DNA of 64,000 nucleotides. Origin: Acinetobacter suaedae (GTDB lineage Bacteria > Pseudomonadota > Gammaproteobacteria > Pseudomonadales > Moraxellaceae). Below the pieces are notes generated by a model. It had not been told where the DNA came from. It searched no databases and worked only from the letters and a program-made list of their open reading frames with translations. The position numbers and the translations under genes are program-made. Position 1 is the stretch's first letter; every line of letters begins with the position of its first letter. The DNA is taken from assembly GCF_008630915.1 (NCBI RefSeq), contig NZ_CP043909.1:2852001-2916000 (forward strand), given 5' to 3'. Positions 33,229 through 34,779 of the stretch are shown here, one piece after another.

Positions 33229-34779
33229 CTATGGTTTCGGGCTAAAATGACGAGCTGTTACTTTATCATTATGATCCAAATGCAACTGCACGTGATTGGT
33301 TAATCCGGCTTGCCCCCATGTATAAACTTTTGTCAAACTTCCTCCAACGATATCCCGCATATTAAATAAAGCACCACTACAAGAGAAATAAGAAGATGCT
33401 TGACTCAATGACTGCCCAATTTGAACTTGATCAAATTGTTGCTGTGTAGGTGTACAACTCGACTTTGCTATTAGGTCATTAAAGTCTTTCAACTTCAGTT
33501 TATCTACATTGTCAAAATCAAAGATACTCAATTGTGTTAACGCACTCCCCCATGAGTATTTTACAGGTGAAATCACACCGTCAGCTGTGACAATGATTTG
33601 ACCAGAGGGAACCCCATCACAACCAATCGCAGCTTTCACTTGTTGGTAACTACTGTTCAAGGCAATCGTTTTCCATTTATCAGCGGTGACATTACAACTC
33701 GACACTGCTCCATCTTTCGGCTTAAATGCCTTCATCGTTGCTTTTTCATTTTCAAACTGAACAAAAGAATAATCTTTATTAACAACAGCTCCCCAGTCAT
33801 AAGTAATTTGCATTACGTCGCTTACATTGAGCATTTTTGATAAACGCCCTTCACAGCCTAGTTTAGTTTTTATGGTCTGATAATTATCCCCAATGTTTAC
33901 ATTGGACCATTGAGCTTGTGTTGGTGTACAACTTGACTCTGCTGCTAAAGGTGAATCTAAGCTATATCCTTTTAAAATATTGTTATCAAAAATCAACATC
34001 AGTAATTGTGTCTTAATTTCCCCCCAAGTATAACTTGAGGTCACAACCGTATCACTCACAGCTTGACTCTGGAAATGCGCACCAGCACAGCCAATCTGTG
34101 TTTCAACCTGTGCTTTGGTCTGTCCAACTTTTAAAGCTGTCAATGCCGAACCTGTCGGGAAACAAGTTGGTATTGGTTGTTTAATGGGTTGAAAGGCCTT
34201 CCCTTTCAATTGATTATTAGTGAAATTAATTGAAACATAAGGTCCTTTCGTAATATCTCCCCATTTATATCCAGTTTCAATCACACCTGGTTCAACTTGA
34301 GTTTCACTAATTTTTTCACCTGGACAATTTAGCGTTGTTTCTGCTTGCTGTAGGTTATTGCCCTGTTTGAGTTTTATCCAGTTTTCATAAGTTAGCTGAC
34401 ATCCTGTTGGGGTCGGCGTTGGTGTCGGTGTCGGTGTCGGTGTCGGTGTCGGTGTCGGTGTCGGTGTCGGTGTCGGTGTCGGTGTCGGTGTCGGTGTCGG
34501 TGTCGGTGTCGGTGTCGGTGTCGGTGTCGGTGTCGGTGTCGGTGTCGGTGTCGGTGTCGGTGTCGGTGTCGGTGTCGGTGTCGGTGTCGGTGTCGGTGTC
34601 GGTGTCGGTGTCGGTGTCGGTGTCGGTGTCGGTGTCGGTGTCGGTGTCGGTGTCGGTGTCGGTGTCGGTGTCGGTGTCGGTGTCGGAGAATTATGCCCGC
34701 CTGAAGATGAACTTCCACCACATCCAACCAATGCTATACACGCTACGCTGAGTGCCAATTGAGTCCATGTATTTTTCAT
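33229..34779 (-). CDS. Lipoprotein with Pro-Thr stalk and five C-x24-C repeats
   Basis: A 516-residue lipoprotein. Signal peptide with lipobox LVGC (Cys20) is followed by a Gly/Ser linker, a stalk of 47 Pro-Thr dipeptides (about 32-125), and five tandem repeats of 75-80 residues starting at Cys127, 206, 284, 362 and 442. Every repeat has a second Cys exactly 25 positions after the first (C-x24-C), then Y/K-x-W-G about 20 residues on, then an F-x-N-x-x-L-type strand. The pattern recalls BLIP/SmpA-OmlA-like repeats, by inference only. The stalk probably lifts the repeats through the periplasm or off the surface. Function unknown. It is convergent with the acyltransferase gene and divergent from the JmjC gene. 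Confidence 0.85.
34405..34686 (-). repeat. Hexanucleotide microsatellite (GGTGTC)n
   Basis: On the plus strand the unit GGTGTC is repeated 44 times without a single change from 34421 to 34684, flanked by one or two degenerate units on the left. On the minus strand it codes for Pro-Thr. Six-base units keep the frame, so gain or loss of units changes stalk length only. The regular GG pairs could also allow two-layer G-quadruplex structures on the plus strand. Confidence 0.97.

Follow-up and report, generated by a model that had tools for sequence, protein, structure and literature searches.

The question raised by this locus is what a protein built from five copies of one small cysteine-paired domain does in Acinetobacter suaedae, and where in the cell it would act. 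In the stretch of 64,000 nucleotides that was analysed (the window), an open reading frame on the minus strand (33229-34779) encodes a protein of 516 amino acids, referred to here as the five-domain protein. The initial annotation had described five tandem repeats, each with a C-x24-C motif and starting at Cys127, Cys206, Cys284, Cys362 and Cys442. This description is confirmed by the cysteine positions, by residue shuffles and by eight proteins of this type from different species. The repeats occupy the span 33229-34401, which reaches from Cys127 through the stop codon. Repeat 1 (34165..34401, minus strand, as for all features of the gene) runs from Cys127 to residue 205, contains Cys127/Cys152 and is matched by the repeat profile with E 2.2e-22, a profile that includes its own sequence. 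The other repeats, located by their cysteine positions and by profile match, are repeat 2 (33931..34164, Cys206 to residue 283, Cys206/Cys231), repeat 3 (33697..33930, Cys284 to residue 361, Cys284/Cys309), repeat 4 (33457..33696, Cys362 to residue 441, Cys362/Cys387) and repeat 5 (33229..33456, Cys442 to the C-terminus including the stop codon, Cys442/Cys467). Apart from these pairs the protein contains Cys14 and Cys20. The paired cysteines are 25 positions apart within each repeat, and 78-80 positions separate one pair from the next. When the residues of the domain region were shuffled 20,000 times, a Cys-Cys distance recurring five times turned up in one shuffle, a count that ignores the tandem order. 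A scan for promoters and terminators between 33100 and 35000 gave nothing over shuffled sequences.

The N-terminus of the translation reads as a signal peptide with a lipobox (A-L-V-G-C20; residues 1-20, 34720..34779). The lipobox ends at Cys20 by our reading of the sequence, and the automated pick is Cys14. The five-domain protein is thus a predicted lipoprotein by its lipobox, which fits export, and the location in the periplasm or at the cell surface proposed earlier is compatible with it. Directly after Cys20 follows G-G-S-S-S-S; a Gly after the lipidated cysteine is, by rule, a signal for outer-membrane sorting. The related proteins also have a lipobox cysteine, located 44-64 residues ahead of the first repeat cysteine.

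Between the N-terminus and the repeats lies a Pro-Thr stalk of 94 residues (residues 32-125, 34405..34686). It consists of 47 Pro-Thr pairs encoded by 47 hexamers, 44 of which are CCGACA and three are variants, so that the coding sequence contains a near-pure microsatellite (34412-34686, period 6, 45.8 copies). The stalk is the only G+C-rich part of the gene, as the repeats have the base composition of their surroundings, and matches of the five-domain protein to NCBIfam models fell on Pro-Thr-rich stretches. The stalks of the relatives are 30-40 residues long and have mixed codons, and in one relative the stalk is made of Glu-Glu-Pro-Lys-Pro repeats. Because these stalks differ in sequence and composition, it is an extended stalk that is kept and not its sequence. 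As the hexamer unit is a multiple of three, slippage would alter the length of the stalk without a frameshift, and the pure array in the window suggests a recent lengthening by this mechanism.

The family of related proteins was used to analyze the conservation of the repeats. A profile of a single repeat counted exactly five repeats in each of the eight genomes that encode such a protein. Both cysteines and one Trp are present in all 40 repeats, including the 35 of the repeat alignment from which the profile was made; the five repeats of locus L018 were omitted from it, being nearly identical to those of L019. The spacing of the cysteines over the 40 repeats is 25 in 34, 27 in three, 26 in two and 29 in one. 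Of the two strand motifs that had been assigned to every repeat, Y/K-x-W-G was recovered as Y-x-W-G in all five repeats of the window. The F-x-N-x-x-L strand is loosely conserved, but its strict form occurs in two of the five repeats only (repeats 1 and 2). When the 40 repeats of the eight species are placed in a tree, those of the same position cluster together at a cost of four label changes, the minimum possible; two label changes are needed by repeat 3 alone, and the group of repeat 4 is weakly supported (71/0). As the repeats group by position, the ordered five-repeat array predates the divergence of these proteins (26-97% identity). A recent duplication or homogenisation of the repeats is ruled out by the same grouping. 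Mean entropy is highest at strand positions outside the core-facing class (2.89 bits), followed by helix (2.66 bits), loop (2.43 bits) and core-facing positions (1.89 bits), the last class having been chosen by hydrophobicity from the same data.

A resemblance to BLIP and SmpA/OmlA-like repeats had been suggested from the sequence, together with a structure prediction of one repeat as a way to examine it. An AlphaFold2 model of repeat 3, calculated with the 35-row alignment, is a single helix-helix-beta4 domain predicted with confidence (mean pLDDT 92.9, pTM 0.81), with helices at 8-12 and 20-27 and strands at 32-39, 42-50, 57-63 and 66-73. This order of two helices and four strands has been described for BLIP and SmpA_OmlA domains (PMC2954215). 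PMC10936184 was set aside, since it concerns a beta-lactamase fold. A search with the repeat profile against 177,635 distinct PDB sequences gave 3d4e as the first of two matches at E <= 10 (E 0.0045, profile positions 8-72 of 79), an entry named 'putative beta-lactamase inhibitor protein' in the PDB. With the five-domain protein as a single-sequence query, the PDB search returned chance matches only. Among genomes of the class, the match outside the genus is a lipoprotein of 107 amino acids that was read as BamE (E 7.6e-4, profile positions 7-71 of 79). Alignment of the repeat profile to this BamE with hhalign gave 86%, a value that is not independent because this BamE had been picked as the best profile match. 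Against a three-row BamE alignment hhalign gave a probability of 8% over only 22 columns with a score of 19.4, compared to at most 14.3 for 100 column shuffles and 10.5 on reversal.

No Pfam or NCBIfam model recognises the five-domain protein over its cut-off. The proposed search against PF04355 and the BLIP family did yield weak matches, but all of them stayed below the gathering cut-offs: 16.7 and 18.1 bits against 26.7 for BLIP (PF07467, E 0.0044-0.011; the match with E 0.011 covers residues 365-460, starting in repeat 4) and 14.1 and 15.9 bits against 23.2 for BamE (PF04355). DUF3862 (PF12978) also matched below its Pfam cut-off. When single repeats were compared with PF04355, two of the 35 matched at E <= 1 (best E 0.005), and unrelated families were matched by single repeats at similar E-values. 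Taken together, the model of repeat 3, the 3d4e match and the BamE match support the suggested resemblance, and a BLIP/BamE-like fold is very likely for the repeats; that the fold is common to all five follows from the alignment and the model of one repeat.

In the model of repeat 3, the two cysteines bracket the helices, with position 4 just ahead of helix 1 and position 29 just behind helix 2. At the ends of a helical hairpin these two residues would come together. Because the cysteines are invariant, their spacing is regular and the protein is predicted to be exported, each repeat probably contains one intradomain disulfide. BLIP contains two disulfides, Cys30-Cys42 and Cys109-Cys131 (PMC8363833). 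These pairs are spaced unlike C-x24-C, so the predicted staple of the repeats would be a different one.

The five-domain lipoprotein is rare in Acinetobacter. With the window protein as a query, matches were obtained in 6 of 119 Acinetobacter genomes, and a five-row alignment as a query matched 8 of 175; the single-repeat profile found the same eight genomes. When 299 genomes from 16 genera of the family were sampled, the alignment query gave five matches, all in Acinetobacter, and none in the other genera of the family. The repeat profile detected only the protein of the window and the BamE-like lipoprotein mentioned above in 369 genomes of the class. A search of contigs, in which the single-sequence query found no relatives compared to six for the alignment query, named A. 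colistiniresistens, A. higginsii, A. modestus, A. proteolyticus, Acinetobacter sp. KCTC 92772 and an Acinetobacter MAG. Mobile cargo was considered as an origin and rejected, as tblastn gave no match in 72,556 plasmid or 50,697 phage records. A literature search, by which subscription journals are little covered, found no paper on the five-domain protein.

In six of the eight species the gene adjoins FilA/DUF6160-related genes, relatives of a putative pilus protein, and it lies apart from them in the genome of the window and in A. colistiniresistens (G128). In five of the six (G023, G071, G079, G064 and G139) it is flanked by cluster 1 and cluster 10 genes inside a run of DUF6160/FilA-related genes that resembles an operon, and a conserved block containing dus, ffh, coaX and birA lies upstream or downstream. 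Genes that intervene in the operon encode a protein of 292 amino acids (G023, G071) or, in A. modestus (G079), two adjoining ORFs (L020:10466-11931) located between the FilA-related genes and the five-domain gene. The latter match the N-terminal and the C-terminal part of the Pfam family Trp_halogenase (E 6.7e-21 and 5.3e-60). In the sixth species (G030, a contig of 7.1 kb), two FilA/DUF6160-related genes lie upstream of the five-domain gene and an unrelated gene lies downstream. The Fil-related genes score below the NCBIfam FilA cut-off (best 103.5 versus 220 bits); of the five related proteins of L019, two exceed the DUF6160 cut-off, and FilA scores reach at most 99.3 versus 220. In the genome of the window a Fil-like operon is found at a distance of 0.3 Mb, and a DUF4882 protein takes up the position that the five-domain gene has elsewhere; G128 has a Fil-like operon without either of the two. 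Of 30 loci around a FilA-related gene, 28 were readable by motif. In five of these the five-domain gene adjoins, in one (the window's) the DUF4882 protein does, and in 22 another protein is found.

Next to the five-domain gene, the window has a cupin_8/JmjC-like gene with a DUF6502 gene after it (34914-37679). Of 29 loci in other Acinetobacter genomes, 28 retain this pair, and its upstream neighbour in the window differs from that in the other loci. The 29 loci at the cupin gene have neither the five-domain gene nor the acyltransferase in the upstream sequence covered, up to 1.5 kb (locus L073 begins at a contig end), so that none of them gave a clean empty site.

The region from dus to dcd (L018-L023, L079, L080) contains a DUF6160/FilA-related run that diverges strongly between species, and its flanking genes are nearly identical. 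Between G023 and G139, CoaX and BirA share 98% and 97% identity and the five-domain proteins 51%; between G128 and G079 both flanking proteins share 99% and the five-domain proteins 32%. In the G023/G139 pair, dS is 0.9-2.1 in the operon versus 0.22-0.69 for the four genes that were tested in the flanks. A dS in the operon so far above that of the flanks suggests that recombination has exchanged the locus. The five-domain protein is under purifying selection, with dN/dS values of 0.07, 0.20 and 0.29 in three pairs; these are the maximum of the operon in two of the three pairs and not in L018/L019. The two unlinked proteins, of the window and of G128, are 46% identical to each other and 26-32% to the other six, and the G030 protein is 31-33% identical to the other five operon-linked proteins.

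For members of the BLIP-like superfamily, the proposed mode of action is the binding of partner domains (PMC2954215, PMC10653890). Since, in addition, strand positions off the core are the most variable ones, we read the repeats as a candidate multivalent binding array. The signal peptide would be cut before Cys20, this cysteine would be lipidated and the protein would be placed in the outer membrane. The Pro-Thr stalk would keep the five BLIP/BamE-fold modules off the membrane, each module would be stapled by a disulfide from position 4, before the first helix, to position 29, after the second, and the sheets of the modules would present variable faces to partner proteins. The partners would most likely be components of the putative FilA/DUF6160-related surface system, in whose operon the gene lies in six of the eight species. 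We favour this reading, a binding array of five disulfide-stapled modules on an outer-membrane lipoprotein that probably serves a Fil-related surface system, and give it an even chance. The separate position of the gene in the genome of the window and in G128, and the FilA scores under the NCBIfam cut-off, count against it. A more specific version regards the protein as the species-specific, variable binding part of a Fil-type system at the surface, exchanged by recombination, with the microsatellite tuning the length of the stalk. The strong divergence against nearly identical flanks is as expected of a surface locus exchanged by recombination; this version as a whole seems to us unlikely.

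The same operon, shared with exported DUF6160-related proteins, would also suit a lipoprotein for assembly in the periplasm, BamE-like or TpgA-like, whose stalk would span the periplasm and whose modules would act as chaperones or anchors while the Fil-related outer-membrane proteins are assembled. BamE, which gave the sole profile match outside the genus in the 369 class genomes, is itself a small lipoprotein of the outer membrane with a BLIP-like fold. However, BamE consists of one domain and the genome of the window encodes, at another locus, a BamE that passes the family cut-off, the five-domain protein is far more variable than the genes that flank the locus, and it is found in 8 of 175 genomes compared to 143 of 173 for a FilA-related match. 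The five-domain protein is therefore not needed by Fil-related systems in general, and a role in assembly is considered unlikely. The genome of the window also encodes a second BamE-domain protein (L002:1054-1845), with a C-terminal part that is OmpA-like in appearance and a neighbour that resembles the end of a trimeric autotransporter; presumably this pair recalls TpgA.

That the linkage to the operon is incidental, a by-product of recombination at a variable locus, would make the protein a free-standing surface lipoprotein, for example an adhesin or a decoy. The two unlinked genes are consistent with this, their products being nearest to each other (46% versus 26-32%), but the six linked ones span proteins as divergent as 31-33% identity, and we regard this explanation as quite unlikely. 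Slightly less probable still is a tandem inhibitor, whose BLIP-like modules would grip an enzyme (a beta-lactamase, a penicillin-binding protein or a protease) within the envelope or outside it. The weak sequence link to PF07467 and 3d4e speaks for it, but the inhibitor name of 3d4e is 'putative', the disulfides reported for BLIP are spaced unlike C-x24-C, and no beta-lactamase or penicillin-binding protein gene is found beside the gene in the loci read (ORF tables, by eye). Inhibition of beta-lactamase is not favoured on this sequence-based comparison, and the initial annotation was right to claim no function.

Compared to known systems, the candidate binding array has an unusual build, a fixed array of five domains with a predicted cysteine staple in each and a stalk that would be lipidated, and it could serve as an entry point to the FilA/DUF6160-related operons that are widespread in the genus. 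With BLIP of Streptomyces (PF07467), 3d4e and DUF3862 (PF12978) it shares the tandem helix-helix-four-strand domain, and in the region of the first helix BLIP has a F/W-x-x-hydrophobic-x-hydrophobic-G pattern alike that in the repeats. BLIP has two domains (PMC2954215, PMC8363833), versus five here. The predicted lipid anchor and the long stalk belong to the five-domain protein, and one C-x24-C pair per domain differs from the two BLIP pairs. In DUF2874, a family of this fold, a protein carries one to four copies of the duplicated domain (PMC2954215). BamE (SmpA_OmlA, PF04355) is alike in its order of helices and strands and in being a lipoprotein, the SmpA_OmlA proteins being named as lipoproteins in PMC2954215; it consists of one domain with Gly-x-Pro where the five repeats have Gly-Cys-x-Gly. 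In the fil operon of A. baumannii, the sixth ORF encodes the lipoprotein FilF, an exported outer-membrane protein that others have tested as a vaccine antigen (PMC4751259). FilF is 641 amino acids long compared to 516 for the five-domain protein. Here too a protein with a predicted cysteine anchor accompanies FilA-related genes, and the likeness in role between the two is by analogy only.
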